This document shows, one piece after another, positions 12,415-44,190 of a stretch of 64,000 nt of DNA; within the stretch, counting starts at the first letter, position 1, and each line of letters begins with the position of its first letter. A program made the translations under genes and the position numbers. The DNA is taken from positions 1-64,000 of the forward strand of contig CACFBG010000006.1 in the NCBI GenBank assembly GCA_902564535.1, read 5' to 3'. The notes under the pieces are model-generated. The model was not told the origin of the DNA and made no database searches. It saw only the letters and a program-made list of their open reading frames with translations. The DNA comes from an uncultured Prochlorococcus sp. (GTDB taxonomy: Bacteria > Cyanobacteriota > Cyanobacteriia > PCC-6307 > Cyanobiaceae).

Positions 12415-12421
12415 GCTTGAA

Positions 12422-16701: not shown

Positions 16702-18484
16702 GCCATTGGGACCTCTCAGCTCTAGTTCAGTCCAAATGTCTCCTAGTCCAGCCTACAACCAAGTCGATAACTGGTCGAGCTTATTGCAACTGGTTAGTTC
16801 ATGCCCTCGAGAGGAGCTTGAGCAGCATCGAGCTTTTGCCGATAAAACATTAAAGTCATCAAAAGATGTTGGTTGGGCATTACCTCTAGGTTATGCGCTT
16901 TATAGGCTTGAACTTTATAAAGAAGCCTTAAATGTCCTTGAAATGGCTGAAGTATTTGCTGATACAGATACTGAATACAACATGATTATGGGCATGTCAG
17001 CAAGGAAAATTCCTGGTAAAAAAGAAATTGCAAAGCAGGCGTATTCAAGAGCATTAAAAATAAGTCCTTATAGAGCTGATATTTTTTATAATCTTGGCAA
17101 TCTCATGAGAGATGAGAGTCCTAAAATAGCTGAAAGGGCCTATAGATTTAGTCTACTAATAGATAATACCGCTTATTTAACTTGGCATAATTTGGGTATT
17201 TCATTGAATGAGCAAGATAAATTTTATGAAGCATTAAAAGCATTTAGACAGGGAATTAAAATAAATCCTATGCATGCTGATGGATGGTGTAACGCAGGAC
17301 TATCTTTATTTGGTATGGAGCAATTTAAAAGAGCAATAAAATATTTTCATTGCACACTTCAAATTGATGAAAAAAGTGAACCAGGACATGTTAATTTAGG
17401 GTATGCTTTAATGAATGATAGAAGGCCTTATGAAGCATTAGATTATCTTAAGAAAGGTTTATCTTTGAATCAAGGTTCAGTCAATTCTGTTTGGAATTTA
17501 TCATTAATTCATTTGATGTTAGGAAATTATATAGAAGGTTGGGATTTGTATGAAGCACGTTTTGGTACTGATCAATTTAAAGATCATGTTTGGCCATCTT
17601 CAGGAGTTAGAATTACTGCTTTTTCTGAACTTAAAGTAACTAAAGATAATCCATTACTGGTTTGGAGTGAGCAAGGCATGGGAGATGTTATTCAATTTTG
17701 TCGATATCTATATTTACTTGAGGAAAAAGATATACCATTTGTTTTCTCTACCAGAAAAAATTTGATTGAATTAATGAAGACATGGCTACCTTTCTCTGAT
17801 AAAATAATTCTTGAAAAGACCTGGACTCCTGAAGAAGATAATCGCCCCCAGATTCCTTTAATGAGCTTGCCACGATTATTTGGTACTGAGACTCATACCA
17901 TTCCTAACCATTGCCCTTATTTAACACCAACAAAGAAAATTCCAGATCGTCTTTTATTAAATGAAGCACCAGGGGGATTGAAAGTAGGTTTTGCTTGGGC
18001 CTCCAACCCTGATAATAAGCAAATGTATCGCCATAAAACTATGCCCCCAGAACTATTGTTGTCACATTTTATAGATTTAGTTGATTTGGATCTTATAGAT
18101 TTACACTCTTTACAAATAGGTAAAGATTCTAAGAATATAGAACAATACAAAGATCATCAGAGAGTATATAATTGGGATGGAAAATTAGATGATTTTTCTG
18201 ATACAGCTTTTGTGATTAATCAGCTTGATATGGTTATTAGTGTAGATACTGCTGTAGCTCATTTGGGCGGAGCGTTAGGCAAGCCTACTTGGCTATTACT
18301 CCCTCATAATGCAGATTTCAGATGGCTGCTTGACTCTACTGATAGTCCTTGGTATCCCACAATGAGAATTTTTAGGCAACCTCAACGAGGTGATTGGGAA
18401 TTTGTGGCAAAAGAGATTAAAGAAGCTTTAGGAATGCTTTTTGCTTTAGATCTTGATTCATTATCAAATTCTAAATTAAAATAA
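16700..18484 (+). CDS. TPR protein with a GT9-like glycosyltransferase domain
   Basis: A 594-residue protein. TPR units cover about residues 35-275 (AYSRALKISPYRADIFYNLG, ALKAFRQGIKINPMHADGW). The GT9-like domain begins with VWSEQGMGDVIQFCRYL near residue 321 and has VDTAVAHLGGALGKPTWLLL near 515 and WYPTMRIFRQ after it. It has the same plan as the protein at 1303-2502. The ATG at 16700 forms a shared CATG with the divergent GT41 start. A later ATG at 16736 would remove the overlap and trim a Ser/Pro-rich leader. Its stop overlaps the PPIase start (TAATG), so it heads the type I secretion operon. That position suggests it acts on the exported protein. Confidence 0.75.
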   Translation: MPLGPLSSSSVQMSPSPAYNQVDNWSSLLQLVSSCPREELEQHRAFADKTLKSSKDVGWALPLGYALYRLELYKEALNVLEMAEVFADTDTEYNMIMGMSARKIPGKKEIAKQAYSRALKISPYRADIFYNLGNLMRDESPKIAERAYRFSLLIDNTAYLTWHNLGISLNEQDKFYEALKAFRQGIKINPMHADGWCNAGLSLFGMEQFKRAIKYFHCTLQIDEKSEPGHVNLGYALMNDRRPYEALDYLKKGLSLNQGSVNSVWNLSLIHLMLGNYIEGWDLYEARFGTDQFKDHVWPSSGVRITAFSELKVTKDNPLLVWSEQGMGDVIQFCRYLYLLEEKDIPFVFSTRKNLIELMKTWLPFSDKIILEKTWTPEEDNRPQIPLMSLPRLFGTETHTIPNHCPYLTPTKKIPDRLLLNEAPGGLKVGFAWASNPDNKQMYRHKTMPPELLLSHFIDLVDLDLIDLHSLQIGKDSKNIEQYKDHQRVYNWDGKLDDFSDTAFVINQLDMVISVDTAVAHLGGALGKPTWLLLPHNADFRWLLDSTDSPWYPTMRIFRQPQRGDWEFVAKEIKEALGMLFALDLDSLSNSKLK

Positions 18485-19218
18485 TGAAGGATATGTTGAC
18501 AGATAAAAAAATAATAAGTCTGATCCATAGAATGGAACTTATGCCTTCCATCGTTAATAGATATATAGAGGAAGAGATAATTAATTTAGTTTCCTTGCCT
18601 AAAACTTGGCATGACAATGCTTTAAAAGAGTTTTTAGAAGGAGAAAAATTATCGAAAGATGACCTAAATTCATGGTTAGAGAAAAAATGTTGGAATATTG
18701 ATGACCTGACTTTGCATTTGGCTAGGCCAGAGGCTCTTTATCGTTTTTCGAAGCAAAGATTTGGCCCAGGTTTAGAAGAAAAATTTTTAGCTAATGCAAA
18801 GGATTTAGATGATGTAATCTATTCTCTTATTAGAGTTAAAGATCCATTTTTGGCAAATGAGTTGTGGATGCGTTTATGTGAAAGAGAAGTAAGTTTTGTT
18901 GATTTAGCGGCTAATTATGGAGAAGGGCCAGAAGCACAACGTAAGGGTTTAATTGGTCCAATTTCTTTTGGATCATTACAACCTTCTATGATTCAAGATC
19001 TTTTAAGAGGTCTATCTCCAGGGGAATTTACACCACCTACACAACTTGGAGAATGGCATATATTAATTAGGCTAGAACAAATTAGTCCATCTTCATTTGA
19101 TTCAAAAACACGGGATAAACTGTTAAGTGATCAGCTATCTGCTTTCATTAAAGATCGTTCTATAACCCTTTTGAATGGGGAACAATTAGAACCTCTCCAT
19201 TATGATCCTGAATCATGA
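18484..19218 (+). CDS. parvulin-type peptidyl-prolyl isomerase of the secretion operon
   Basis: The 244-residue protein has a helical N-terminal region, then a parvulin/rotamase-like stretch at about residues 110-205. In it, FVDLAANYGEGPEAQRKGLIGPISFGSL resembles the family's F.elA..yS..pga...GGdLGwf block, and L.GLSPGEFTPPTQLGEWHILI matches its substrate-gate segment. There is no signal peptide, so it is presumably cytoplasmic. It overlaps the upstream gene by 1 bp and the ABC exporter by 4 bp (ATGA), so the genes are surely co-transcribed. PPIases next to HlyB/HlyD-type exporters recur in cyanobacteria, where keeping RTX substrates competent for export is a plausible role. Confidence 0.75.
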   Translation: MKDMLTDKKIISLIHRMELMPSIVNRYIEEEIINLVSLPKTWHDNALKEFLEGEKLSKDDLNSWLEKKCWNIDDLTLHLARPEALYRFSKQRFGPGLEEKFLANAKDLDDVIYSLIRVKDPFLANELWMRLCEREVSFVDLAANYGEGPEAQRKGLIGPISFGSLQPSMIQDLLRGLSPGEFTPPTQLGEWHILIRLEQISPSSFDSKTRDKLLSDQLSAFIKDRSITLLNGEQLEPLHYDPES

Positions 19219-22200
19219 TTGAAAAGGCAATTTCTCAGCAGGATCTATTAAAGCGGTTTGAAGCTTTTGCTTTATTAGAACCTGACCATCTTGAGTGGCT
19301 ATCCACTCGAGTTATACAATTTCATTCAAATGTAGGACAAGAATTATTAGTTCCAGATCGTTTACCCGAGCATTGTTTTTGCATTGTGCAAGGAAGAGGG
19401 AGATTATTGCATCAAGACCCTGGTCTTGAAAGACCGGTCACCCTTGCCTTAAGTCAACCTGGAGACTTAGTTGGCTGGATTGGGCTTACTAGACGAGCTC
19501 CATGTGAATGGGTAACTGCTTCAACTCCAATGAAGCTTTTAGGAATTAAATCAGAAGATTTTTATTGGTTAGAAAATAATTCTCATGCTTTTGCAGATTG
19601 GACGTCTAATCATAATTCCCCAGCAGAATTTATGGATACATTAGGCCCTGCATTAAGACGTCGATCTAAAGCAGAACCACCAGAACGAGATGTTCTTAGA
19701 AGTCTTCTACCAGGAATGCAAACAGTTACATTTAATTCTGGAGATCCATTACCTTCTGAGCCAGAAGATTCGATTTGGCTATGGAATGGCTTTCCCACTG
19801 GTCAAAATAATTTAAAAATAGATATAGGAGATTATGTTCAAATTGATGAGCTAAAGAAATTGCCTAATAAAATAAGTCTTAGATTATTAAGAATAGATCT
19901 AAATCTTTGGGAACAATTTATAGATTCATCAGATGATATTGAAGAAGTTGAATTCAGTATTCCACAAGTAAGTGATAGTGCAGGGGAAGATAGGTATAGC
20001 GATTTGTTATTACCTGAGCCACAAGGAATGAAGGTAGATAGAAGTAATACAACTCAACAAGAAGAAAGAATTGATGATTTAAAAACTAATTTAAAGACAC
20101 CTGTAAGAACTGGGGTTGGATCCCTCGCTCAGGTTATGGCATGTTTAGAGATGTTTGCTATATATTATAAAATACCTTTTAGATCAGATATAATTGAAAG
20201 AATTACAAGGGATCAGCTTCGAGATAAAAAACCAAATTTATTAATGGTTGGTAATATTGCCACAGTATTAGGATTAACAGGAGCACTAACACCTATAGCT
20301 GAAGATCAATTACATAGGGTTCAGTTTCCATGTATAGCTTTAATTGCCTCACAAACATCTGTAATTTATGATATAAGCAAAGGAATCGTGAAGGCCGTTG
20401 TTCCCGAATATGGGAAAGTTTCACTTTCTTTGGCTGAATTTACTGAAGGTAAAGGTGGTGCCGAGATATTAACTTTAACCCCAGGTCGTGATGCGCAAAA
20501 ACGTAAACTAAATTTTAAATGGTTTTTGCCTCAATTAAGCAAATATAGACGAAGTTTAATAGAAGTTTTCTTGGCTTCATTGGTTTTACAATTGACAAAT
20601 CTTGCTACTCCTTTAGTTTTTCAGCAAATTTTTGATAAAGTAATAGGCCAACAAAATCTTGATACATTATATACTTTGGGTTTGGTATTGTTAGCAATTA
20701 GTGTATTTCAAGGGTTGTTAGGTGCTGTAAGAACTTACCTATTTACAGACACTACAAATCGAATTGATATAGCACTTGGAGGTCAAGTAATACAACACTT
20801 ATTAAGACTCCCACTTAGTTATTTTGATAGAAGACCTGTAGGTGAATTGCAAACTCGTATTGGAGAGCTAGGAAATATTAGAAGTTTTCTTACTGGAAAT
20901 GCCATAACTTTAATTTTAGATGTTGTCTTCTCTGTAATTTATGTAGCTGTAATGTTAACTTACAGTGGTGTACTAACTGCGGTCTCATTAGCTGTAATAC
21001 CTTTATTTTTGGGTTTAACAATCGTTGCATCACCTGTAATTAGAGGTCAGCTTCGTAAAGCTGCTGAAAAAAATGCTAGAACCCAGGCCTTATTAATTGA
21101 GTCGTTAAATGGTGTTCAAACTATTAAAGCCCAAAATGCAGAGAATTCAGTTCGTTGGAATTGGCAGCAGAGATATTCAGCATTTATGAGCGAGAGTTTT
21201 AGAACTCTTTTGATTGGAATTTCGGCAGGAACAGTTAGTGGATTTCTTAATCAATTAACTGGTTTATTAACTTTATGGGTTGGAGCTTATTTGGTTATAA
21301 AAGGGGATTTAACTATTGGTCAACTTATTGCTTTTAGAATTATTTCTGGCTATGTTGTTGGTCCCTTGTTAAACCTTGCCACTAGTTGGCAAAGTTTTCA
21401 AGGAGTTGCATTGTCAATGGAACGTTTAAGCGATGTTGTCGATGCAGTAGATGAATCTGGTGGTGAATTAACTGATCAATTACCATTACCTCCAATTGAC
21501 GGAGAAATTACGTTCCAAAATGTTGATTTTAGTTTTGTAGAAGGAACTAAAGTTGTTTCAAATGTTAGTTTTAAGGTAACTCCTGGTTCTTTTGTAGGAA
21601 TAGTAGGAAGAAGTGGAAGTGGTAAAAGTACAATTATGAAGTTACTGCCAAGATTATATGAGCCAGAAAAAGGGAGAATATTAATAGATGGATATGATAT
21701 TTCTAAACTTCAACTTTCTTCTGTTCGGAGACAAATTGGCATAGTTCCTCAAGATAGTCTCCTATTTGATGGAAGTATTAGAGAAAATATTTCCCTTACT
21801 TCTCCCGATACCACTAGCGAAGAAATTGCGGAGGCAGCTCGAATTGCAGGTGCACATGATTTTATTATGGAACTGCCAGAAGGTTATGCAACTCGTGTAG
21901 GAGAAAGAGGCAGTAGTTTGTCAGGTGGACAACGTCAAAGGATTGCAATAGCAAGAGCAGTATTGCAGAAACCTTCTTTATTAATTCTTGATGAGGCGAC
22001 CAGTGCTCTTGATTACATTACTGAAAGACAAGTGTGTTTGAATTTAAAACGGTATTTTTCCGGAACAACAGTTTTCTTTATTACTCATCGCTTAAGTACA
22101 GTTCGCTCATCTGATGAGATCCTATTATTAGAAACAGGAAGCTTGGTTGAAAAAGGAAGTCATAGCGAGCTTATGAAATTGCAAGGTCGTTATTACGCTC

Positions 22201-22232
22201 TTTATTCACAACAGGAGGCAGACATTGACTAA
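19215..22232 (+). CDS. type I secretion ABC exporter with cNMP-binding-like and degenerate C39 domains
   Basis: This is a HlyB-type ATPase/permease of 1005 residues. Residues about 15-125 resemble a cyclic-nucleotide-binding fold. Residues about 295-420 are a C39-peptidase-like domain in which AQVMACLEM replaces the catalytic DCG block, with Gln306 at the Cys position, so no leader peptide cleavage is expected. Transmembrane helices span about 440-720. The ATPase has the Walker A GRSGSGKST at 798-806, the LSGGQ signature near 902, Walker B LLILDEATS near 922-930 and an H-loop FFITHR. It overlaps the PPIase and HlyD genes. The presumed substrate is the RTX protein at 10219. Confidence 0.9.
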   Translation: MIEKAISQQDLLKRFEAFALLEPDHLEWLSTRVIQFHSNVGQELLVPDRLPEHCFCIVQGRGRLLHQDPGLERPVTLALSQPGDLVGWIGLTRRAPCEWVTASTPMKLLGIKSEDFYWLENNSHAFADWTSNHNSPAEFMDTLGPALRRRSKAEPPERDVLRSLLPGMQTVTFNSGDPLPSEPEDSIWLWNGFPTGQNNLKIDIGDYVQIDELKKLPNKISLRLLRIDLNLWEQFIDSSDDIEEVEFSIPQVSDSAGEDRYSDLLLPEPQGMKVDRSNTTQQEERIDDLKTNLKTPVRTGVGSLAQVMACLEMFAIYYKIPFRSDIIERITRDQLRDKKPNLLMVGNIATVLGLTGALTPIAEDQLHRVQFPCIALIASQTSVIYDISKGIVKAVVPEYGKVSLSLAEFTEGKGGAEILTLTPGRDAQKRKLNFKWFLPQLSKYRRSLIEVFLASLVLQLTNLATPLVFQQIFDKVIGQQNLDTLYTLGLVLLAISVFQGLLGAVRTYLFTDTTNRIDIALGGQVIQHLLRLPLSYFDRRPVGELQTRIGELGNIRSFLTGNAITLILDVVFSVIYVAVMLTYSGVLTAVSLAVIPLFLGLTIVASPVIRGQLRKAAEKNARTQALLIESLNGVQTIKAQNAENSVRWNWQQRYSAFMSESFRTLLIGISAGTVSGFLNQLTGLLTLWVGAYLVIKGDLTIGQLIAFRIISGYVVGPLLNLATSWQSFQGVALSMERLSDVVDAVDESGGELTDQLPLPPIDGEITFQNVDFSFVEGTKVVSNVSFKVTPGSFVGIVGRSGSGKSTIMKLLPRLYEPEKGRILIDGYDISKLQLSSVRRQIGIVPQDSLLFDGSIRENISLTSPDTTSEEIAEAARIAGAHDFIMELPEGYATRVGERGSSLSGGQRQRIAIARAVLQKPSLLILDEATSALDYITERQVCLNLKRYFSGTTVFFITHRLSTVRSSDEILLLETGSLVEKGSHSELMKLQGRYYALYSQQEADID

Positions 22233-23859
22233 AGAAAACGAATTGAATTCACTCTATAAAAAAATATTGAGTATCAAATCTTTTTTAGTATCTAATATTA
22301 AAAAAGTAGATTTCAAGTCTAAATCATTACTATTTTTAGATCAATTAAAATCATCTAGTACTAGATTAAATGTTTTTATTAATTCTAAAATTAGGCCCAG
22401 AGCTTCACGATTGAAGCAGAAGATCAAGGGAAAACTTCCACCTAAAGTAATTATAGCTAAAAATTATATTTATGATAAGACTTCTTCTAGTTTATTATCA
22501 ATTAAGGGTTATGTAAAACCGAAAGTATATTCTAAATATACACAATGTAAAAATTATATTTTAGATATAATTAATACAAGAGGGGCTTCGGTAAAAGTAT
22601 TAAAGAGAAGTACTGATGATGTTGAAATACCAGTTCCTGGTACACCTTTTAAAGAATGGACTGATCATTCAGCTTCTCTTCGTCAGGGCAGACATTGGTC
22701 TTCAACAATAATTGCTTTATGTTCAACAATGTTTGTTGGAGCGTTACTGTGGGCCTTTACTGCTCGTATTGATCAGACAATTACTGTGCGCGGGAGATTG
22801 CAACCATCTGGTTCAGTTAGAGAAGTTGAATCACCTAGCGCAGGTGTAGTTAGCAAGGTTTATATAAAAGATGGTGATGTTGTTACTAGTGGACAACCTT
22901 TATTTATTGTTGAATCGAAAGGATTAGCTAGTAAACGTTCTGGTTTGTCAAATACCTTGGCAATTTTGGAGGTTCAAGCTGCTTCTTTAAAAGCAATTAT
23001 GACTGCTAAAGGTGATTCAAATAAAATTGTTACCATGCCACCTTTGCCAATTATTGATGATCCAGATCTTTCTTCGAAATTAGTTATTGCTCAACAACAA
23101 TCTCAGTTGATTTTATCTCAACTTTCTCAAATAGCTTTCAGATTAGAAAGTCGTGAAAAAACCTTAAACCTTCAAAAACAAATTGCACAGAATTTGAAGC
23201 CTTTATATGAGGTGGGAGCTATTGCTAGAAATCAATATTTAAATAAGTTAAATCAAGTCCAAGTGGTTCGAGCTGATGTTCAAAGCCTTAGGCAAGAAAG
23301 GACAAGGATCCTAGGACAGGCTGCGGTTCAATTAAATCAATTAAATACACAAATGATAAATTTGCGTTCACAGTTAGTTCAAATTGGTGAAACCTTAGCT
23401 TATCGGACAGTTAAAGCTCCTATAGATGGAAAGATTTTTGACACTAAAGTCTCTCCTTATTCAGTAGTTAATGGTGGAGCTTTAGTTTTAAAGATAGTTC
23501 CAGATAATCGTTTAGAGGCAGCAGTTCAAATAAGTAATACAGATATTGGCTTTGTTAAAACAGGGATGAACGTAAACGTAGCAGTTGATTCCTTCCCTTC
23601 TGGCGAATTTGGATATTTAGAAGGAACTTTGAAAAGCGTTGGATCAGATGCTCTTCCACCTTCCCCAGATTCTCCTGGATATAAATTTCCAGCAACTATT
23701 ACTCTTAAACAACAGGAAGTTGAGTCGGGAGGGAAATTACTTAACCTTCAAAGTGGAATGGGTGTAGCTGCTAATATTAAATTACGATCTAGACCAGTGA
23801 TAACACTTTTAACAGATTTATTTACTAAGCAATTAGAAGGAGTAAGCCGTTTTCGTTAG
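22225..23859 (+). CDS. HlyD-type membrane fusion protein with a long basic N-terminal extension
   Basis: The periplasmic adaptor of type I secretion. One transmembrane helix lies at about 159-178 (TIIALCSTMFVGALLWAFTA). The lipoyl half-motif GVVSKVYIKDGDVVTSGQPLF, a coiled-coil hairpin at about 280-400 and beta-barrel segments ending near residue 530 follow. The cytoplasmic N-terminus is about 158 residues, much longer than the roughly 60 in HlyD, and is rich in Lys, Ser and Tyr with short repeated helices. The TTG start lies 8 bp inside the ABC gene. No outer-membrane TolC-like gene is in the window, so the outer channel must be encoded elsewhere. Its stop overlaps the convergent GT4 gene. 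Confidence 0.88.
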   Translation: MTKENELNSLYKKILSIKSFLVSNIKKVDFKSKSLLFLDQLKSSSTRLNVFINSKIRPRASRLKQKIKGKLPPKVIIAKNYIYDKTSSSLLSIKGYVKPKVYSKYTQCKNYILDIINTRGASVKVLKRSTDDVEIPVPGTPFKEWTDHSASLRQGRHWSSTIIALCSTMFVGALLWAFTARIDQTITVRGRLQPSGSVREVESPSAGVVSKVYIKDGDVVTSGQPLFIVESKGLASKRSGLSNTLAILEVQAASLKAIMTAKGDSNKIVTMPPLPIIDDPDLSSKLVIAQQQSQLILSQLSQIAFRLESREKTLNLQKQIAQNLKPLYEVGAIARNQYLNKLNQVQVVRADVQSLRQERTRILGQAAVQLNQLNTQMINLRSQLVQIGETLAYRTVKAPIDGKIFDTKVSPYSVVNGGALVLKIVPDNRLEAAVQISNTDIGFVKTGMNVNVAVDSFPSGEFGYLEGTLKSVGSDALPPSPDSPGYKFPATITLKQQEVESGGKLLNLQSGMGVAANIKLRSRPVITLLTDLFTKQLEGVSRFR

Positions 23860-25156: not shown

Positions 25157-26203
25157 TTAGATTTCTGGAAATCTTTGAACAAGTTTTTGATCCAATTCAA
25201 ATCTATTTGACCAAATATCCTGATAAATTTTAATTCGAGTAGGCAGTAAATTTCTAAGATTACAATTATTTTTCACATAATCATGAGAAGATGAAATGAT
25301 TTTGAGTCTTTTATCTAAATTATTACTTAATTCTTCGGCCATAGGTATAATTTCATTAAGTTTAGATGAATACATCCCATTTTGATGATGCCCTAGAATT
25401 TTTTTATATAGTCCTGGGCCTCCAACCGTTGCAACAGATTCAGCAGCAGCCTCCATCCATTTGATTTCTGTTTTACAATTGTTGGGTAAATTGTTATCTA
25501 GTGGCAGAAGTGCAATGTGACAACTTCTCATGACTTTTCTATATTTAAGATATTTTAAAAGAGGATAAGATTCAATATTTTTGCTAGGTAATGAATTAGC
25601 CATTTTTCTGTCTCCTATAATTACAATCTTAAGAAAAGGATTCTTATCACACCATTCTTTTAAAGGAGCCAAAAGTGTTTGGTGCTCCAATATACGATTT
25701 TGGTTGCCAATAAATATACGGATATTATCTTTATTTGTATAGTGCTTCTCAAGATTTATTTCTGGTATTCGCCATACAGCATTCTCAAAAATATAACTTA
25801 TTGGTTGAATATGTTGTAGAGAATTAGCTAATATATAGGATGAAGTATGCAAAGCATGGCACAATTTAAGAGGTGCCATTGATATATTATTAAGTGCAAT
25901 TTTGATCTCTTCGGGAAATAAATCAGGATGATCATCCCATTCTATAAGGAGAATAGAATTTACTCTCCTTATTCTTCTTATAATATAAAGTTGCTCTTCC
26001 CAGCTTGATGGTCTAGGCCTTTGCCATATTACTAAGCTATTTGGTCTAACTACTTTACTTAATCGAAATGGATATTTAAATATTCTGCAATCAACTCCTA
26101 ATCTTTGAAGACCACAAAATGGTTCACGAATTCTTACTTGTTCGTGTGGTCCATGACTATTGACAAGAATCTCTAGTTTTAGAGTCGAATAGTTATTATT
26201 CAA
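25157..26203 (-). CDS. putative GT-B glycosyltransferase (GT4-like)
   Basis: The 348-residue protein lacks a full GT4 signature but has a GT-B feel. It has an N-terminal ILVNSHGPHEQVRIREPF, LLIEWDDHPDLFPE near residue 100, IRIFIGNQNRI and LKIVIIGDRKM as first strands of the second domain, then VMRSCHIALLPLDNNLPNN and TEIKWMEAAAESVATV where GT4 enzymes bind the donor. The E-x7-E block is degenerate (KWMEAAAESVATVGG). It sits in the minus-strand run between a GT4 and the second EDD-motif protein. A sugar transferase role is likely but less sure than for its neighbours. Confidence 0.6.
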   Translation of the reverse strand: MNNNYSTLKLEILVNSHGPHEQVRIREPFCGLQRLGVDCRIFKYPFRLSKVVRPNSLVIWQRPRPSSWEEQLYIIRRIRRVNSILLIEWDDHPDLFPEEIKIALNNISMAPLKLCHALHTSSYILANSLQHIQPISYIFENAVWRIPEINLEKHYTNKDNIRIFIGNQNRILEHQTLLAPLKEWCDKNPFLKIVIIGDRKMANSLPSKNIESYPLLKYLKYRKVMRSCHIALLPLDNNLPNNCKTEIKWMEAAAESVATVGGPGLYKKILGHHQNGMYSSKLNEIIPMAEELSNNLDKRLKIISSSHDYVKNNCNLRNLLPTRIKIYQDIWSNRFELDQKLVQRFPEI

Positions 26204-26227: not shown

Positions 26228-27088
26228 TCATACATTTTCAAATGGGTGACGACGCCATAATTGATCCAAGTGATTGACCATTAAGAAACGATATTGTGAA
26301 GGAATAGGCTTCATTATTTTTAGAATGGGTAACAGTAATCCACTACCAGCTTGCTCTAGAGGGCCTGATAATTCGAAATCAGAAATCCAATTTTTATTAA
26401 TCCAGTAATCTCTAACTTTTAATGCTTGACGCTGAGTAAGAAAGTAACAACCTGAATGAGGATTTGTAGCTCTATAAAAATATTGATTACCAAGTGGCCA
26501 AGGGATTTCAATTTTCTCTCCAGTATCCCAAAATAAGTCAGGTCTCCCTCCTTCTGGATCTCCTGATAGGATCACATCTCCTTCTCCTGGAATAGATTCG
26601 CAACGATGTGGCATAAAAGCAATATTTCCATCTGTTTGCTCATCTAAATATTTTATTTTCAAAAAGAAATCTCTATCTTCAATGAGTAAATCGTCTTCCA
26701 TATAACAGATTATGTCATAATCATTTGCTTGGCGTAATAAACTTTGGCTAGTAAATAGAGGGATCTGAGTGTAGTCATTAAATGTCGTATGTATAATTTG
26801 GATGCTTTGATGTTCTTTAAGTTGAGTTGAAAGAGTTGCTATTTTTGGACAGTATAATTGAAATGTAAGATCCACCTTATGAGCTATTTTTAATTCTTTT
26901 GTGAAAATATTTGTTCCTAACCCTTTAGAAGTATGTATAAAATATTTTTGATTATGCCTAATTCTATTACCATGAGTAACTTGAGATAGAGCTTGTTTTT
27001 TGACCTCTCTTTTTTCTTCATTTTGAGAGGAATATATTGACCCTTCTACCGGATTAAAGACATGTGGAATACCAATCAGAATTCTCAT
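26228..27088 (-). CDS. putative glycosyltransferase with an EDD motif (paralogue of 2716-3618)
   Basis: A 286-residue protein of no named family. It begins MRILIGIPHVFNP, has CYMEDDLLIEDRDFF with Glu-Asp-Asp at 131-133, and NPHSGCYFLTQRQ near residue 210. The other copy at 2716-3618 shares the N-terminal strand (MRILVAIVHHWNP), the CYMEDDL block and NPHSGC. Conservation of an acidic triplet after a strand points to a metal-dependent GT-A-like site, which is inference. It lies between a sulfotransferase and a GT4-like gene in the same minus-strand run. Confidence 0.55.
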   Translation of the reverse strand: MRILIGIPHVFNPVEGSIYSSQNEEKREVKKQALSQVTHGNRIRHNQKYFIHTSKGLGTNIFTKELKIAHKVDLTFQLYCPKIATLSTQLKEHQSIQIIHTTFNDYTQIPLFTSQSLLRQANDYDIICYMEDDLLIEDRDFFLKIKYLDEQTDGNIAFMPHRCESIPGEGDVILSGDPEGGRPDLFWDTGEKIEIPWPLGNQYFYRATNPHSGCYFLTQRQALKVRDYWINKNWISDFELSGPLEQAGSGLLLPILKIMKPIPSQYRFLMVNHLDQLWRRHPFENV

Positions 27089-27234: not shown

Positions 27235-28056
27235 TTAATCATCCCATGTGATCCCTATCTCTTCTTTTACCCATTTGTAAGTACTAGAGAGCTCGTTAAT
27301 TATTTTATGCTTTATATCTAATGAAACATTAGTTGATTCTCCAGCCCCAGGATTTCCTATGGGAATATTGATATTTTCACTAAAGGGCTTTATTCCTAAG
27401 AAAGTACTTAATAAATTAAGGCTAGATATATTGTTTTTAAATATATCCTCGCTTTTTAGTATTAATAAATTCTTTGCTTTAAATAGATTTGTATAGCGTT
27501 GAATTTGGATCTCATATCTACTACGCGATATATAGCTATGTTCTTGATGACTTTTGTTGGTTTGACCAGGAATATGAATAAGAGTCTGGCTATTTTCTAA
27601 GCGGTCCTTTTCTGCTTTTAAAGCTTCTTCTAAAGTTAGATTTTCCAACCCTAATCTGACTGAATGAAAATATTGTGATAAGGCTCTTTCGACTGGATTA
27701 CGTAAAAGCAAGATCAACTTGATATTCTTTTTGAACTTATAAATTCTTTTTGGAACTGCCTCATGATAGATATAATAAGGTGTTATTTCACCTCTTATTT
27801 TTCCTGCACTTGCTTCTTTAAAATGGTTTATGTACCATTCATCACCATAATTATAAAACTTAGTGAAATAATGAATCTCTTTATTGTCTGGAAGGAATAT
27901 ATCAGGATGCTGCTTCAGTATTTGATATAAAGTTGTAGTCCCACCTTTTTGTGTTCCTATTCCTAAAAAATGTGGTTTAGGCCTTTGAGATCTGATCCCC
28001 CAAAATGCTTTTAACTGTTTATTAAAGTCAAGAAGTTTAGCAGAGTTACTCTTCAT
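27235..28056 (-). CDS. sulfotransferase (PAPS-dependent)
   Basis: A 273-residue cytosolic-type sulfotransferase. The 5'-phosphosulfate loop GTQKGGTTTLY lies at residues 35-44 after the strand HFLGI. The 3'-phosphate site is LLLRNPVERALSQYFHS, with Arg119 and Ser127. SRSRYEIQIQRYTNLF near residue 180 is a typical heparan N-sulfotransferase-like block. Such enzymes move sulfate from PAPS to sugar hydroxyl or amino groups. The gene is 7 bp downstream of the sulfotransferase-GT fusion and is presumably in its operon. Surface-glycan sulfation is the likely role. Confidence 0.85.
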   Translation of the reverse strand: MKSNSAKLLDFNKQLKAFWGIRSQRPKPHFLGIGTQKGGTTTLYQILKQHPDIFLPDNKEIHYFTKFYNYGDEWYINHFKEASAGKIRGEITPYYIYHEAVPKRIYKFKKNIKLILLLRNPVERALSQYFHSVRLGLENLTLEEALKAEKDRLENSQTLIHIPGQTNKSHQEHSYISRSRYEIQIQRYTNLFKAKNLLILKSEDIFKNNISSLNLLSTFLGIKPFSENINIPIGNPGAGESTNVSLDIKHKIINELSSTYKWVKEEIGITWDD

Positions 28057-28063: not shown

Positions 28064-30238
28064 TTATCTAATACTTAAAATTTTATCATTAAAAATTAAT
28101 CGCTTAATATTTTTTTTGACCATATCTTTGATTTTTTTGATGATACTGCTATTAATATTTTTATTTATCTCTTTTGTATAATTATTTCTTGGAATCCTTT
28201 CATGAAATGCCTGCCAACTTAAGTTTATTTTCCATGGATCTATTTTTGCTCTTAATAAATACGCATGTTGATCAGTATTTGTAAGTGCTTCATTTAGATG
28301 ATGAGCAAGTTCATTAGGATTGGGCTTTGCAAGCCATTTTCTATCAACTTCTCTCACCATTTCTTTTATACCACCTGTATCAGTCGTAACTACTCTAAGA
28401 TTACTGTCTAGCAATTCCTCTAATACACATGGACTATTCTCTATGATGGAAGGAATCACTACAACGTATTTTAACTTTTCTATTAATTGCAGTGCTTCTA
28501 AGCGATTTAAAGTGTTTTGAAATTCATATTCAATATTTAGATGATTTAATTTGCTTTTAATTAACTCAGATGAAAGAGTACCCTCATCTAAATAACAATC
28601 GCTACCGACAAATAATATTTTGGCAGGCTTAGATTTCAGTTGTTCTAGTGCCTTAAGAAATAATTTTAAACCTTTTCGAGCTTCTAGTCTGCCAAAGAAG
28701 ATCAATTTATTCTGATTAGATGAATTGTATGAAGCATTATTTATCAATCTTTTACTCAGAGTACAATTTCGTTGACTCACAATATTAATTTCTTTTTGAA
28801 GAATCTTCTCTTTGACCCATTTAAGCATGAATTCTGATGGAGATATTAATAGATCGGCATTGTTAATAGAATCTTCTTCTAAGGCCCTAATCAGACCTTC
28901 TTCGTATAAATGCTTTTCATCTATTTTGAGACCCCCATTTTTCTCCCTAGGCCAAGGATTCCCACCCCTTGTCCATGCTGTAGGCCCATGTAATCCAATA
29001 AATACTTTTGAAGATTCTAGTAAATTATTTTTCAACCCACTGCCTAACCCTAGCCAATCATGGACATGTATCACATCAGGTTTTATTTCACTTACTTTTT
29101 TATATATAACCCTATTTAATTCTATTCTTGTTAGGCCATTTGGATTGATTTTCAAGATATTAATTCGATGATTAAAATCTTCGGATATTTTTTCATCTGA
29201 CGAATTTACAAGTATTATGGATGTAGAATGTCCAGCTTCAATAAGAGAATTTGCTAGTTCATAATAAGCTGAACCTATCCCTCCGCAATTAACATAATTT
29301 TGAAGTTCCGCTGTGATAATTATCACTTTAACCTTTGGCTGAAGAGTTTGTGTGCTCTCGTAAATACTATTTAGCCCAAGTTTGCTTTCATTACTTTGCA
29401 TTATATCCTTTATTTTGTTAGGAAGGTTTTTAGCCTTCCTATTTAAATTATATTCAAAGCTTTTCTTATTTAAAAAATCAGTTAATTGTATAGTATGTTG
29501 ATCCATCTCATATGATTTATCTATTAGTTGTTTGCTTGGTAACTTCATGTCAATATGATCGTGGATTCGTTTTTCTAAATCTTTTGCAGGCTTCCAATTT
29601 AAAAACTTGCAAATATGAAAAACTTCACGCTCAGGATTTTCAAGAATATCTTCAAAATTAGTAATAGAATAATTATCTTTTGATAACATTCTAATTGTCT
29701 CAAAAGTATTAATATATGTCCTTTGCCATAGAGCTTCTGCCCATAACATAGGCACTTGTCCTTTTTCACTGAATGACTTAATATTTCTCAAGGGATCTCT
29801 ATGAACTATTAGAAGCTTTATTTGTATTTTCATCTCTGTTAAAACTTTCACCCAATCTTTTAATAAAATTGCTGATCTGGGATCTTTTACAGCCCACAAG
29901 TTTGTATTTTTTAATCTTCTTTTAATGATATTAGATAGCTCTACCTGAAAAGTTTCTCTAATTGAATTATGTTCAGTTTCAAGTGAGAATGAACCTTTAT
30001 AGCTGCTCCAATGTCTTTTTAATAGAACAAGAGTTTTATCTTGTAGATCAACGATATCTTTATCTTCAAAATAATCATAACGCGGCCTTAAATGTTTTGG
30101 AATACCACTTTTCATTAACAACTTATTTCCCATTGGAACTCCTGCTGAATTCAATAGTCCACCTAAGAGAGAAGTTCCACTATTGTGCATCCCTATAATG
30201 AGGCAGCAGGTCTTTTCGGATTTTTGTCTTGGGATCAC
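28064..30238 (-). CDS. fusion of a sulfotransferase domain and a GT4 glycosyltransferase
   Basis: A 724-residue two-enzyme protein. Residues 1-260 form a sulfotransferase: IIGMHNSGTSLLGGLL at 14-29 is the PAPS P-loop and LIVHRDPLRNIKSF is the 3'-phosphate site. From about residue 302 a GT-B glycosyltransferase begins (KVIIITAELQNYVNCGGIG), with LIFFGRLEARKGLKLFL and a donor block PSIIENSPCVLEELLDS near residue 597. The two catalytic domains in one chain suggest coupled addition and sulfation of a sugar. This is the first gene of the minus-strand run and is divergent from the GT2 gene at 30387. The frame is continuous with no sign of an artefactual join. Confidence 0.83.
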   Translation of the reverse strand: MIPRQKSEKTCCLIIGMHNSGTSLLGGLLNSAGVPMGNKLLMKSGIPKHLRPRYDYFEDKDIVDLQDKTLVLLKRHWSSYKGSFSLETEHNSIRETFQVELSNIIKRRLKNTNLWAVKDPRSAILLKDWVKVLTEMKIQIKLLIVHRDPLRNIKSFSEKGQVPMLWAEALWQRTYINTFETIRMLSKDNYSITNFEDILENPEREVFHICKFLNWKPAKDLEKRIHDHIDMKLPSKQLIDKSYEMDQHTIQLTDFLNKKSFEYNLNRKAKNLPNKIKDIMQSNESKLGLNSIYESTQTLQPKVKVIIITAELQNYVNCGGIGSAYYELANSLIEAGHSTSIILVNSSDEKISEDFNHRINILKINPNGLTRIELNRVIYKKVSEIKPDVIHVHDWLGLGSGLKNNLLESSKVFIGLHGPTAWTRGGNPWPREKNGGLKIDEKHLYEEGLIRALEEDSINNADLLISPSEFMLKWVKEKILQKEINIVSQRNCTLSKRLINNASYNSSNQNKLIFFGRLEARKGLKLFLKALEQLKSKPAKILFVGSDCYLDEGTLSSELIKSKLNHLNIEYEFQNTLNRLEALQLIEKLKYVVVIPSIIENSPCVLEELLDSNLRVVTTDTGGIKEMVREVDRKWLAKPNPNELAHHLNEALTNTDQHAYLLRAKIDPWKINLSWQAFHERIPRNNYTKEINKNINSSIIKKIKDMVKKNIKRLIFNDKILSIR

Positions 30239-30386: not shown

Positions 30387-32138
30387 TTGTTTGCAGATTT
30401 GCTAAAGCTAGTTGCTTGGATACGCAAAAAAACACCTGCGTCATTAAAACGTGCTCTTTTGACTTATAAAGCGCTTGGAAAGAGTAATACTCTTGATGAA
30501 ACTAGTAGTTATAAAAATATGCATGAATATTTTGATACTTTTACTGAAAAATCTCCACCAATTTACAATCACAAGATCCCTTTATTTGATAAGATGCTAA
30601 TAACTAGCTTTGGCTTATCATTTAGAGAATGGCAAATTCATTTTTGGCTTCAGAAATTACCAATCCCTGAATTAGGAAATAGTGAAATAATTAATTCTGA
30701 TTATAATTTCACTATTTTGACTATAAAGCCTTTGAATTCTCAAGATAAATCTTTGTCAAATTTAAAAATAGCAATAAATTTTGAATCCCCTTCTTCTGAT
30801 AATTATGAGCAATGGATATTAGGACTAAAAAATCAAGACATTATTTGGGATATTAATCCTAAAAGAACTTGTTTTCTTGAGGAGATGGGATTACCTGCAT
30901 ACTGGTTAGATGCAACTAACATTTCAAATAGCTGGCTTATAGAGGCTAAGGCTAATGACAAAGAATATTGGGGTAAATATCTTGGATTATCAGTATTGGC
31001 TCCTGAACAAATTATGGTTTTGGGCCATGGAGGATCAGAATTAGACAGGTCTTTGGCTAAAGATTACATTATTAATAATCAAGTTATTGAACCTAAAATA
31101 TATTATCTTCCTGGATGGAAGGAGATTATTATAGCAAATAAATTAGATTCCTATTATCAGGCAAGATGGCTATATAAAATTTCAAGTTCGCTGAATAGTG
31201 TAGTATTAATGGATAGTGATAGTTTTTTTGAAGATTCTTTTCGAAAGTTATTTCCGAGTGACTTATATTTTTGTAAGTCTCCAATCACTAGTTCTGAACT
31301 TCGTTTATACTTAAAAGGTCAAGAAGCTTATGCTATCGCTGAAGAACGCAGGGCCTCCTCTTTTGAGAAAGTTTATATTTGGGAGACATCTTTACGACCA
31401 AAAATAGCAGTATTAATTAGTCTTTATAATTATGAGAGTAGGATACGTGATGCACTTGAAAGTGTTGCTAATCAAACGCAATCAAATATTGAGTTAATAG
31501 TTGTAGATGATGGCTCTAGTGATCAAGGATTAAATGTTGTCCAAGATTGGATGGAGAATACTATCTTAGAAAAATCTCACCCATTTGTAAGATTGCTTTT
31601 GATTAGGCATCAAACTAATTTTGGCTTAGCTGCTGCAAGAAATACGGCTTTTGCAGAGGCTCTTTCTGAATGGTGTTTTGTCCTAGATGCCGATAATGAA
31701 TTATTCCCAAATGCCCTGCGGTCATGCTATGGAATTACTCAATGTAGTTCTGAACAATTAGCAGTAGTTCATCCTTTGTTATTAGTTGAAGCAGAGAACG
31801 GCCGTGAAGATGACGATCGCAGTTTAGTTGGCTTGGCCCCATGGCAAAAACACCGCTTAATGCATGAAAACACTATTGATGCAATGGCTTTAGTAAGGCA
31901 TTCAGCTTGGAAGCTAGTTGGTGGTTATACCCACATTGATGGAGGTTGGGAAGATTATGATTTTTGGTGCAAATTGATTGATCAAGGTTTTTTTGGAATT
32001 CAATGTCCAGAAATTCTTGCAGTGTACCGAAGCCACAAGAAATCTATGAGTCATATATATACTAATACCAGCTGGCGCTCACTTTCTAGAACTTTAAAGA
32101 AGCGTCATCCCTGGATGCAACCAAGAGCATTAGAGTGA
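30387..32138 (+). CDS. glycosyltransferase family 2 with a large unknown N-terminal domain
   Basis: The C-terminal part from about residue 335 is GT2. AVLISLYNYESRIRDALESV opens it, VVDDGSSD near residue 371 and LDADN near 433 are the nucleotide-sugar and metal sites, and GGWEDYDFWCKL near 519 is the usual acidic catalytic block. The first 330 residues show no motif I know, although IMVLGHGGSELDR and VVLMDSDSFFEDSF suggest another nucleotide-binding or GT-like fold, with MDSDS a possible second DxD. The start is TTG, preceded closely by AAGG. It heads a plus-strand run reaching the ABC exporter at 38491. Confidence 0.8.
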   Translation: MFADLLKLVAWIRKKTPASLKRALLTYKALGKSNTLDETSSYKNMHEYFDTFTEKSPPIYNHKIPLFDKMLITSFGLSFREWQIHFWLQKLPIPELGNSEIINSDYNFTILTIKPLNSQDKSLSNLKIAINFESPSSDNYEQWILGLKNQDIIWDINPKRTCFLEEMGLPAYWLDATNISNSWLIEAKANDKEYWGKYLGLSVLAPEQIMVLGHGGSELDRSLAKDYIINNQVIEPKIYYLPGWKEIIIANKLDSYYQARWLYKISSSLNSVVLMDSDSFFEDSFRKLFPSDLYFCKSPITSSELRLYLKGQEAYAIAEERRASSFEKVYIWETSLRPKIAVLISLYNYESRIRDALESVANQTQSNIELIVVDDGSSDQGLNVVQDWMENTILEKSHPFVRLLLIRHQTNFGLAAARNTAFAEALSEWCFVLDADNELFPNALRSCYGITQCSSEQLAVVHPLLLVEAENGREDDDRSLVGLAPWQKHRLMHENTIDAMALVRHSAWKLVGGYTHIDGGWEDYDFWCKLIDQGFFGIQCPEILAVYRSHKKSMSHIYTNTSWRSLSRTLKKRHPWMQPRALE

Positions 32139-36707: not shown

Positions 36708-36950
36708 TGTATGAGTCTGTGATTGCTTATTTTCATTAACGGTTAATTCTTTATAGTTACCTTTCAACTCAAGTAAGGGTTTGAAAACTTCTACTGTGGG
36801 GTTAATCTAATCAGCCTTAGCGCATGAGCGCAATAGGATCCTTTGCAAACAGTTCTTCCAATCGGGTCAGAATCAAGCCCACCACTAACCTTAACTTCTG
36901 GGAAAAAGCATCTTGATAATGCTTTCCCTGGAGGAGACCCTGCAGTTCTT

Positions 36951-37685
36951 ATGCAACTTAAGGATGTTGGTTTAGATATTCCCGTATACACAACTGAGAC
37001 TCGTACTTTGAAGTCGAGTTTGATTAGATCAGTTACTGGAGGCAAATTAAGTCGGAGGCGAGGCGGTGCTGTGATAACTGCTCTTCACAAAGTTAGTTGC
37101 ACAGTTCGAGAGGGAGAAAGAATTGCTTTGATAGGCCATAACGGTGCAGGCAAGACAACTTTTTTACGATTGATTTCAGGCATTTATAGGCATACCACTG
37201 GCACCTTTGAATCTAGAGTTTCTGTATATCCAATGCTCCATAAGAGCTTTATTACAAGTCCAGACTTAAGCGGACTTCAAGCAATTAAGGCTCATTATTT
37301 AATGGTTAAGGGCAATTTAAGAAATTTTGAACAATTTAGTGAAGATGTTATTGGTTTTTCTGGCTTAGGTGATTTTATTCATTTGCCTGTAAAAACTTAT
37401 AGTCAAGGAATGTCCACACGTTTGTTATTTGCTGTTCTTACGGCCTGCAGACATGAATGCTTGGCTCTAGATGAAGGACTAGGTGCAGGAGATAGTGTTT
37501 TCTTTGAGAAAGCTCAACAAAGACTTCATGATTTTCTAAGTACTACTGGAACAGTTTTTATAGCATCTCATTCTGACTCACTATTACGTAGTTTTTGTAA
37601 TAGAGGATTAGTTTTTGAGGAAGGAAGAGTTGTATTTGATGGTTCTCTTCAGTCAGCTTTAGATTATTACCATCAGGGAAATTGA
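36951..37685 (+). CDS. polysaccharide ABC exporter, ATPase subunit (Wzt/KpsT/TagH type)
   Basis: The ATPase of an ABC-2 polysaccharide exporter. GHNGAGKTT is Walker A, YSQGMSTRLLFAV the signature, LALDEGLGAGD Walker B and IASHS the H-loop. The ending FDGSLQSALDYYHQ is typical of KpsT/TagH/short Wzt proteins, and there is no C-terminal carbohydrate-binding domain. The frame is open to a TTG at 36843. I chose ATG 36951 because the family starts with a strand like MQLKDVGLDIPVY and because GGAGGAG (36930-36936) lies upstream. Its stop overlaps the permease start (TGATG). It probably exports a finished glycan made by the island. Confidence 0.87.
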   Translation: MQLKDVGLDIPVYTTETRTLKSSLIRSVTGGKLSRRRGGAVITALHKVSCTVREGERIALIGHNGAGKTTFLRLISGIYRHTTGTFESRVSVYPMLHKSFITSPDLSGLQAIKAHYLMVKGNLRNFEQFSEDVIGFSGLGDFIHLPVKTYSQGMSTRLLFAVLTACRHECLALDEGLGAGDSVFFEKAQQRLHDFLSTTGTVFIASHSDSLLRSFCNRGLVFEEGRVVFDGSLQSALDYYHQGN

Positions 37686-38491
37686 TGTTGCATTCTATTA
37701 GTCGTACTAGATCTGTTTCCAATACTTTGCGTGAAGCTTGGGCTATGCGAAGAGTTTGGTGGTTTACAGCAACTGCAAGAACTAAAGCTCGTTTTGTTAG
37801 AACTTTATTTGGGAGTTTTTGGCTTGGCTTTTCTAACCTTTTGTCTATTGCCGCTTTATCTTTTGTTTACGGCGCAGTCTTTAAAGTGCAAAATTTTAAT
37901 GAATATGTAGTTTATTTGGGAATTGGTTTAGTTATTTGGAATACAATTGCATCTGCTATCGGATCCGCGCCAAATTTATTTGAACATAATCAAGCACATG
38001 TACATAATACAAATTTAAATCCAGTCTTTTATACACTTGAGGAATGGTCTTTTCAGTTGCAAACATTTGCTCAATCATTTTTATTGGTTACATTTGTTCT
38101 TTGCTATTTTCAACATAATTTATTTATTAATATCTTTTTAGTTGGTTGGTTGCCAATTCTTAATTTATTTCTTTTTCTTTATTGGGGACCTCTTTTTGTT
38201 TGCTTGCTAGGGGTAAGATATCGAGATCTTTATCAATTAGTTCCTATAGTTTTACAGCTTATTTTCCTTTTATCTCCTATCCTATATATTAAAGAGAATC
38301 TTGGCGGCTTAGAATGGACTGCCAATATTAATCCCTTATATCGAATTTTAAGCCAAGTCAGGAATGCTTTGATTACAGGGAACATTGAATGGGGAGATGG
38401 AATTCTACTGTTGATTTTTAATTTAATTCTGATATGGATGGCTATTAGACGATTGAATAAGGAAAGTTCAAATCTTCCATTCCTGATTTAA
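37685..38491 (+). CDS. polysaccharide ABC exporter, permease subunit (Wzm/KpsM type)
   Basis: An ABC-2 permease of 268 residues. After a basic amphipathic N-terminus (RRVWWFTATARTKARFVRT) there are about six hydrophobic helices, the last ending near residue 250. FGSFWLGFSNLLSIAALSFVY is the first helix, and LSPILYIKENLGG with INPLYRILSQVRNAL is the conserved C-terminal block of Wzm/KpsM/TagG. It overlaps the ATPase gene and ends 15 bp before the convergent GT4 at 38507. The pair moves undecaprenyl- or lipid-linked polysaccharide across the inner membrane. Confidence 0.88.
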   Translation: MLHSISRTRSVSNTLREAWAMRRVWWFTATARTKARFVRTLFGSFWLGFSNLLSIAALSFVYGAVFKVQNFNEYVVYLGIGLVIWNTIASAIGSAPNLFEHNQAHVHNTNLNPVFYTLEEWSFQLQTFAQSFLLVTFVLCYFQHNLFINIFLVGWLPILNLFLFLYWGPLFVCLLGVRYRDLYQLVPIVLQLIFLLSPILYIKENLGGLEWTANINPLYRILSQVRNALITGNIEWGDGILLLIFNLILIWMAIRRLNKESSNLPFLI

Positions 38492-41337: not shown

Positions 41338-44190
41338 ATGCTCAAGCTACTGCTGGGTGATCCAAATGCCCGCAAGCTGAAGCGTTTTCAACCAATTGTC
41401 ACTGACATCAATCTCTTAGAAGAGGAGATCATTCCTTTAAGTGATGATCAACTTCGAGAGAAAACAGCAGAGTTTCGCCAGAGCCTTGCCAACGCAGGTC
41501 AGATGGATAAACAGGCTGAGTTACTTGATGAGCTTCTTCCAGAGGCATTTGCTGTTGTTCGAGAAGCGGCAAAGCGAGTTCTTGGCATGCGACATTTTGA
41601 TGTTCAGTTAATTGGGGGCATGGTCCTTCATGAAGGGCAAATTGCTGAAATGAAAACAGGGGAAGGCAAAACTTTAGTTGCGACTTTGCCTAGTTATTTA
41701 AATGCTCTAATTGGAAGAGGAGTTCATGTCGTCACAGTTAATGATTACTTAGCTAGAAGAGATGCTGAATGGATGGGACAAGTTCATCGCTTTCTTGGCT
41801 TGAGTGTAGGTTTAATTCAGCAGGATATGTCGCCTGAAGAAAGACGAAAAAATTACTTATGTGACATTACTTATGCAACTAATTCAGAACTTGGATTTGA
41901 TTATCTTCGTGATAATATGGCTACAGATATGAACGAAGTAGTACAGAGAAACTTTCAATATTGTGTTATAGATGAAGTTGATTCAATTTTGATTGATGAA
42001 GCTAGAACACCATTAATTATTTCTGGACAAGTTGAGCGCCCACAAGAGAAATATCAAAAAGCTTCTGAAGTAGCAACAGTCTTAGAAAGAGCTGCTGAAA
42101 TGGGTAAAGATGGAATTGATCCAGAAGGTGATTATGAGGTAGATGAGAAACAAAGAAGCTGTACTTTGACTGATGAAGGCTTTGCAAAAGCAGAAGAAAT
42201 GTTAAAAGTTAATGATTTATTTGATCCATCTGATCCTTGGGCTCATTATATAACAAATGCTTTAAAAGCGAAAGAATTATTTGTAAGAGATGTGAATTAC
42301 ATCGTGCGCGATGGAGAGGCTGTAATTGTTGATGAATTTACTGGTCGTGTAATGCCAGGAAGGAGATGGAGTGATGGACAACATCAAGCTATTGAAGCTA
42401 AAGAGCATTTAGATATACAGCCTGAGACTCAGACTCTTGCTTCTATTACTTATCAAAATTTCTTTTTATTATATCCTCGATTGGCAGGAATGACTGGTAC
42501 AGCGAAAACAGAGGAGGTAGAATTTGAGAAAACATATAAATTAGAGACATCAGTTATACCAACTAATATGCCTAGAGCCAGGCAAGATTGGTCTGATCAG
42601 GTTTATAAAACTGAATCAGCAAAATGGAGAGCAGTAGCAAATGAAACTGCTCAAATCCATAAACAAGGAAGACCTGTTTTAGTTGGAACAACTAGTGTTG
42701 AAAAAAGTGAGCTGTTGAGTTCATTACTTTCAGAACAATCAATTCCTCATAATCTCCTTAATGCTAAGCCTGAGAATGTAGAAAGAGAGGCTGAAATTGT
42801 TGCTCAAGCTGGACGAGCGGGTGCAGTCACTATTGCTACTAATATGGCAGGACGTGGGACAGATATCATCCTTGGAGGTAATAGTGACTACATGGCTCGT
42901 CTAAAGTTAAGAGAAGTTTTACTTTCACGTTTGGTGCGGCCTGAAGAGGGACATAAACCTCCTATTCCATTGCAAAGGAACTCTATATCTTCGGAAGGTT
43001 TTGCTAATAAATCTGAAAGTTCTAAATTAAAAAATAAGGCTCCTTCCGAATCGAAAGCAATAGGCAGTCTTTACCCCTGTTCTCTTACCGAAGAAATTGA
43101 AAATGAACTTTCATTATTGGCAAAAGATTTAGTAAAAGCTTGGGGAGATAGGGCATTAACTGTAATTCAATTAGAAGATCGAATTTCAACGGCTGCAGAA
43201 AAGGCTCCCACAGAAGATCTTCAGATTTCTGCATTAAGACAATCTATTTCCAAAGTCAAAAATGAGTATGATGTTGTTGTTTCTCAAGAAGAGATAAGAG
43301 TTAGAGAAGCAGGTGGGCTTCATGTTATAGGTACTGAAAGGCATGAATCTCGTAGAGTTGATAATCAATTAAGGGGTAGAGCTGGTAGGCAGGGTGATTT
43401 AGGTAGTACAAGATTTTTCTTATCTTTGGGAGATAATCTTTTAAGAATTTTCGGAGGAGAGAGAGTTGCTTCTTTGATGAATGCTTTCAGAGTCGATGAA
43501 GACATGCCTATCGAATCAGGAATACTTACACGTTCTCTTGAAGGTGCTCAGAAGAAAGTAGAAACTTATTATTACGATATTCGTAAACAAGTTTTTGAAT
43601 ATGATCAGGTTATGAATAATCAAAGAAGAGCCGTTTATTCTGAAAGAAGAAGGGTTTTAGAAGGTTTGGATTTAAAGAGGCAAGTTATTAGTTATGGAGA
43701 AAGAACAATGATCGAAATTGTCGAGGCATATGTCAATCCAGATTTACCTCCTGAAGAATGGGATTTATCTCAATTAGTGGAGAAAGTTCAGGAATTCATT
43801 TATTTATTAGAAGATTTAAAATCTGAGCATATACGTGGGTTAAATATTGATGAATTAAAATCATTTTTACAAGAACAATTAAGGAATGCCTATGATATGA
43901 AAGAAGCTCAGATAGAAGAGAAGAAACCTGGATTAATGAGGGAAGCAGAAAGGTTTTTTATCCTTCAGCAGATTGATACGTTATGGAGAGAGCATTTGCA
44001 ATCAATGGATGCTTTGAGAGAGTCAGTTGGATTGAGAGGTTATGGACAAAAAGATCCTTTAATTGAGTATAAAAATGAGGGATACGATATGTTTCTAGAA
44101 ATGATGACTAATATGAGAAGAAATGTTATTTACTCTATGTTTATGTTTCAACCTGCATCATCTGCCGATTCAGGTGAAGCTACTTCATAA
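41338..44190 (+). CDS. secA: preprotein translocase ATPase SecA
   Basis: SecA drives Sec-dependent export across the plasma and thylakoid membranes. The 950-residue protein has [17 protein letters not shown] (Walker A, near residue 103), [18 protein letters not shown] (DEAD box), [20 protein letters not shown], and [14 protein letters not shown]. Nucleotide-binding domain 2 carries an insert at about residues 540-640 (from RPEEGHKP to about the [13 protein letters not shown] segment), as seen in cyanobacterial and plastid SecA. The C-terminus ends without the Cys-x-Cys...Cys-His zinc motif that binds SecB. It overlaps the convergent cysE by 43 bp. Confidence 0.97.

Follow-up and report, generated by a model that had tools for sequence, protein, structure and literature searches.

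A GT4 glycosyltransferase fused to a sulfotransferase-fold domain, with an adjacent companion sulfotransferase, in Prochlorococcus and related picocyanobacteria

Can a single gene tie the addition of a sugar to its sulfation? The question is raised by a locus of an uncultured Prochlorococcus sp. (contig CACFBG010000006.1), in whose first 64,000 nucleotides, hereafter the window, the original prediction placed a sulfotransferase (ST) fused to a glycosyltransferase (GT) of family GT4, proposing that this enzyme may couple both reactions in one surface polymer. The placement of sulfate on cyanobacterial surface sugars is little known, and these sugars are what phages and grazers of marine picocyanobacteria meet first.

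The predicted continuous frame of 724 codons was confirmed as a single open frame with a GTG start, lying on the minus strand, which the prediction had left unmentioned; the plus strand over the same positions is full of stops. Three Pfam domains are found in the product, all above their gathering cut-offs: Sulfotransfer_3 at residues 13-215 (E 8.9e-7), Glyco_transf_4 at 319-477 and Glycos_transf_1 at 506-659 (E 3.6e-19). The features of the locus are the following:

28064..30238, minus strand: ST-GT4 fusion gene, 724 aa, GTG start, supported by Pfam and by orthologues
29549..30217, minus strand: sulfotransferase-fold half (residues 8-230), PF13469, with profile and Foldseek matches
30170..30193, minus strand: 5'-PAPS loop GMHNSGTS (residues 16-23), with Asn19 in place of Lys/Arg at 30182-30184
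29876..29887, minus strand: KDPR motif (residues 118-121), invariant in the A4 set
29774..29800, minus strand: 3'-phosphate site R147-x7-S155, recognized by motif, invariant in the A4 set
29339..29548, minus strand: linker (residues 231-300), poorly conserved, 19-26% identity to orthologues
28169..29338, minus strand: GT4 glycosyltransferase half with GT-B fold (residues 301-690), from Pfam and structure comparison
28415..28441, minus strand: GT4 EX7E block ENSPCVLEE (residues 600-608), recognized by motif
28067..28168, minus strand: basic C-terminal tail (residues 691-724), a possible peripheral membrane anchor
27235..28056, minus strand: companion sulfotransferase, similar to heparan sulfate (HS) 3-OST, PF00685, with Lys37 and R119/S127 kept, starting 7 bases after the fusion gene
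30387..32138, plus strand: divergent X-GT2 gene, corresponding to the C-terminal part of the ST-X-GT2 fusions of relatives, without the ST domain
36843..38491, plus strand: ABC ATPase and ABC-2 permease pair (PF00005, PF01061), putatively for surface glycan export

Regarding the C-terminal half, the GT-B domain with a GT4 donor block that had been predicted after residue 302 was borne out by Pfam, by fold alignment and by the EX7E block. The families of the two GT halves, PF13439 and PF00534, reach 49.7 bits (cut-off 28.5) and 69.4 bits (cut-off 26.4), and no curated NCBIfam family reached its cut-off for this half. Alignment of GT-B chains over residues of about 300-686 of the model, whose GT half has stretches below pLDDT 50, gives Z scores from 22.8 to 17.6, the highest being 6kih (Z 22.8, rmsd 5.1, 351 residues aligned). 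The motifs EX7E, GGIGSA and R..K are present in five of the six genomes that carry the fusion. Beyond this domain, the last 40 residues bear a net charge of +8 (+3 to +9 across the six orthologues) and no strongly hydrophobic stretches were found in the fusion protein, a combination that would suit a peripheral membrane protein.

The fusion is present in six of 400 genomes of the family, the own genome included, representing five genera, with orthologues 38-48% identical to the window copy. The same domain order, which the prediction had proposed to look for in other proteins, is found at full length in the own genome and in three others (G013, G054 and G252), whereas two copies are altered: the one from G238 (locus L035) has one in-frame TAA early in the sulfotransferase part, leaving the GT part intact, and the one from G296 (L037) has lost the GT donor half in frame, keeping the ST half. 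A joining artefact, named in the prediction as something that could overturn it, is thus refuted by independent genomes; although the window genome, a draft of 1.37 Mb, is only 74.7% complete, the identical order recurs in the three full-length copies, that of G252 lying on a contig of 2.57 Mb, and in the two altered ones, so that a sequencing or assembly error fusing two genes has practically no probability. A scan of genome contigs with the fusion protein gave one relative, Prochlorococcus sp. AG-409-L18, counted as one with G013. Among 386 genomes of the phylum, a sample without the other five carriers, neither the A1 profile nor the loop pattern GMHNSGTSL detected any full-length ST-GT4 or loop, respectively, beyond the window's own. 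A phage origin was also considered and rejected, as the viral contigs and phages searched contained no relative.

Comparing the three intact orthologues with the window copy, the ST half is 48-54% and the GT half 44-53% identical, with 19-26% for the linker, so both domains are conserved while the segment between them diverges. As the ST half has diverged no further than the GT half, it is constrained rather than decaying.

Is this conserved N-terminal half still a sulfotransferase? It scores 29.8 bits against PF13469 (cut-off 27), and the A4 profile search retrieved the CurM sulfotransferase 4gbm (E 6e-13) and also TPST1, whose GVPRSGTT is aligned opposite GMH-SGTS. PDB matches of the full-length model covered the GT half only and therefore the ST half was modelled separately, resulting in a pLDDT of 88 and a pTM of 0.88. 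The top Foldseek matches of this model are all sulfotransferases (4gox, E 1e-7; 4gbm; TPST2), corresponding to the sulfotransferase domains of olefin synthase and CurM and to tyrosylprotein sulfotransferases, at a TM of about 0.6 and a large rmsd, and so at the family level only.

The predicted PAPS P-loop is indeed there, as is the predicted 3'-phosphate site, but the prediction had passed over the Asn at the Lys/Arg position of the loop. This Asn occurs in all six carriers, as seen in five aligned rows and in the G238 frame upstream of its stop. Among 49 distinct frames surveyed, restricted to those passing the pattern R-[DNHESA]-[PA]-x5-S and leaving frames without such a site uncounted, 44 have Arg and five have Asn, all five being ST-GT4. 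As described in the sections of PMC11625862 consulted, the loop Lys/Arg is catalytic, stabilizes the transition state and is among the features by which the fold family is defined. This defining feature is missing from the ST half, which is here given the cautious name of sulfotransferase-fold domain rather than being counted as a proven sulfotransferase.

Other known or candidate functional positions are retained. R147 and S155 do not vary in the A4 set (L034 has AA instead of DP after the Arg), H18 and E58, candidates for the catalytic base as His or Glu, are also invariant there, and K118 is kept within KDPR. In addition, basic residues found only in the ST-GT4 clade occupy positions 43 (K/R), 51 (R), 94 (R) and 159 (K). 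In tyrosylprotein sulfotransferase, Arg, Glu and the Lys of KDP are catalytic, and other sulfotransferases become inactive or weakly active when their Lys is mutated; a literature search for loop mutagenesis in tyrosylprotein sulfotransferase gave nothing relevant. It is possible that K118 or the clade-specific basic residues compensate for the lost charge, and Glu58 could serve as base. Nevertheless, given the loop Asn, the fused ST half may transfer little or no sulfate. The second objection foreseen in the prediction, that either half might have its catalytic residues mutated, is partly borne out, at the loop but not at the KDPR Lys or the 3'-phosphate site.

The activity that the fused half may have lost could be supplied by the adjacent gene, as its residues suggest. 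This gene, correctly predicted as another sulfotransferase, scores 60.5 bits against PF00685 (cut-off 22), and its matches to sequences of known structure comprise 3rnl (E 2.3e-31), 3-OST-3 1t8t (E 8.4e-24) and NDST 1nst (E 2.2e-13). Its catalytic Lys37 and the 3'-phosphate residues R119 and S127 are invariant in the six carriers, and it adjoins the fusion gene in all six loci; in L034, L035 and L037 the two genes overlap by 4 bases. Of 38 other ST-GT fusions, 27 have a member of the companion family within 10 kb, oriented divergently in 26 cases, as counted from the best 48 rows of the companion survey and assuming that its 300 genomes are the first 300 of the family set; the 38 are those retained from 42 ST rows at E 5e-15 or better, after leaving out two beyond G299, the second copy of G264, and G255. 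Companion and ST-GT fusion thus form a recurring unit.

Most of the related ST domains belong to ST-X-GT2 proteins of picocyanobacteria (about 800-1,100 aa), and other cyanobacteria have ST-GT2x3, ST-GT2x2 and ST-GT2x3-methyltransferase proteins (e.g., L069, L070 and L077). The X middle domain and the C-terminal GT2 of the ST-X-GT2 family are absent from the window fusion, which has a GT4 instead. The X-GT2 genes (window 30387-32138; L068, L072, L074 and L075) have an X of about 280 aa, with no Pfam match, preceding a GT2 domain that resembles chondroitin synthase, and the ST domain is usually found in front of X.

In the ST-domain tree, where long branches may meet and the exact root is unsure, ST-GT4 forms one clade (100/99) apart from that of ST-X-GT2 (97/98). 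The idea that ST-GT4 recently took its ST domain from a neighbouring ST-X-GT2 gene was rejected, since the ST-GT4 domains make up their own clade beside the ST-X-GT2 one. The X-GT2 neighbour lacks its ST domain in all four ST-GT4 carriers that have X-GT2 (the window genome, G000, and G013, G054 and G252), compared with two of 25 other rows (G143 and the second copy in G164), giving a hypergeometric value of 6e-4 that ignores kinship, the tree allowing about two independent cases. In G238 and G296 no X-GT2 match was obtained at 1e-20. The X-GT2 tree, built from 29 rows with the X region and leaving out, among others, GT2-only and partial rows, places the ST-less carriers at two points inside the ST-fused rows: G000, G013 and G054 beside G028, G042 and G078 (99/96), and G252 beside G140 (96/91). 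The simplest reading of these trees would be that an old ST-GT4 gene moves between loci and that, when it lands beside ST-X-GT2, the latter loses its own ST.

Downstream of X-GT2 there are an RgpF-like gene, another GT4 gene and the ABC-2-type exporter pair; two genes lying among these look by eye like GDP-mannose dehydratase and GDP-fucose synthase. In L036 (G252) a gene at 13430-14257, sulfatase- or phosphatase-like by eye, separates X-GT2 from the exporter. The glycan island is bordered by a secA-like gene, also recognized by eye, in the window (41338-44190), in L035 (3705-6563) and in L037 (6292-9126), as if this gene marked a fixed edge of a variable region. On the upstream side, an RTX-repeat protein, two GT41 (O-GlcNAc-transferase-like) proteins, a TPR protein and a type I secretion ABC/HlyD pair stand together at 10219-23859, possibly as a system in which a secreted RTX protein receives its sugars in the cytoplasm and is then exported. 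Two further genes, 25157-26203 and 26228-27088, resemble by eye genes of L033 and L034, and comparison with Pfam, NCBIfam and PDB sequences gave no match for either; at 57479-58156 and 58265-58942 two very similar adjacent genes of 225 aa appear by eye to be tandem copies. APS kinase, for PAPS supply, occurs in the six carriers, which counts for little as it is widespread.

Building on what was directly observed (the fusion and its conservation, the loop Asn, a GT half with intact GT4 motifs, and an intact companion always adjacent to it), the best explanation, to which a probability of about 0.48 was given, is that of a GT4 enzyme with an Asn-fixed ST-fold half, working with an active 3-OST-like companion to build a sulfated glycan for the cell surface, with export through an ABC-2-type transporter. 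The fusion protein would be cytoplasmic and probably peripheral to the membrane, its GT half extending a lipid-linked surface glycan by a sugar at the cytoplasmic face, with substrate and membrane site both putative, and the companion would add sulfate, as the second member of a conserved two-protein unit. The fused ST half may dock the companion, or bind PAP(S) or the sulfated acceptor, and sugar addition would in this way follow sulfation or be tied to it. More tentatively, the ST half may be a pseudo-sulfotransferase, fixed by an Arg-to-Asn change in the loop and maintained by selection, acting as an adaptor or reader that yokes the GT4 to a separate active sulfotransferase, keeping growth and sulfation of the glycan in step; the unit would then have displaced the ST of the polymerase-like X-GT2 gene at least twice. 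Some observations count against the best explanation: G296 kept the ST half and lost the GT donor half, which is contrary to a GT-centred role; the stop codon of G238 falls in the ST part and spares the GT part; and the retained KDPR, 3'-phosphate Arg/Ser, Glu58 and clade-specific basic residues speak against an inactive ST half.

Those same retained residues, together with the fold and the constraint on the ST half, would be expected if the protein were truly bifunctional, its ST half being active despite the Asn and sulfating the sugar added by the GT half, with the missing charge coming from K118 of KDPR or from the clade-specific Arg/Lys. The absence of ST from X-GT2 wherever ST-GT4 adjoins, as if one ST had replaced another, also agrees with this alternative, which is far from certain and yet nearly as likely as the docking or reader role. 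However, the lost Lys/Arg is the residue treated as catalytic in all characterized families, according to the sections of PMC11625862 consulted, and its Arg form is kept in all 44 relatives. Consequently, the coupling of sugar addition and sulfation by one enzyme, as originally proposed, is favoured by the conserved fusion, the GT4 motifs, the glycan locus and APS kinase, but is only partly supported given the Asn of all six carriers and the intact companion; a specialized, possibly non-catalytic module fits better. A rather improbable alternative is that the target of the unit is a secreted RTX-type surface protein and not a polysaccharide. The RTX gene at 10219, the two GT41 genes and the type I secretion pair lie just upstream in the window, type I ABC/HlyD-like genes stand beside the fusion in L033, L034 and L035, and RTX-like repeats are seen by eye in L035 and L037; however, the 19 kb examined around the G252 copy (L036) contain none of these genes and have by eye an ABC-2-type exporter pair instead, and companion and ST-X-GT2 units recur in many genomes, as counted without regard to RTX context.

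This compact unit, a GT4 enzyme with a modified ST-fold half plus an active companion, offers a direct way to ask whether chain growth and sulfation are coupled, and whether sulfotransferase folds can serve non-catalytic purposes in bacterial glycan assembly. The alternation of ST-GT4 with ST-X-GT2 is a natural experiment in module exchange.

Regarding known systems, no paper on a sulfotransferase-glycosyltransferase fusion was found in the open-access literature searched, which does not imply absence from print. Among the closest systems are the uncharacterized ST-X-GT2 proteins, which share an N-terminal ST of the same family, GMH-SGTS, KDPR, a nearby 3-OST-like companion and a C-terminal GT, but differ in the loop Arg, the GT2 instead of GT4, the middle domain X and the separate ST clade. 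The fold and the 3'-phosphate site are those of PF13469 sulfotransferases, such as tyrosylprotein sulfotransferase, CurM and the olefin-synthase ST domains, whereas ST-GT4 has Asn for the loop Lys/Arg and an attached glycosyltransferase. Likewise, the GT-B fold and EX7E are common to the GT4 enzymes HepE (4xsp: Z 21.2, rmsd 4.7, 328 residues aligned), PimA, BshA and PglA, in contrast to which ST-GT4 carries an N-terminal ST-fold domain. NDST (1nst) also joins an ST domain, in its case belonging to PF00685, to another glycan-modifying domain; its partner, however, is a deacetylase, and it is the companion, not the fusion, that matches the NDST ST domain. The synechan xss cluster of Synechocystis 6803, in the portion of PMC8205485 consulted, has sulfotransferase and glycosyltransferase genes side by side for a sulfated surface polysaccharide, but as separate genes and with Wzx/Wzy export, unlike the window. 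ST-GT fusions recur in cyanobacteria, and the GT4 version, with its fixed Asn and constant companion, is distinct and forms a single clade.
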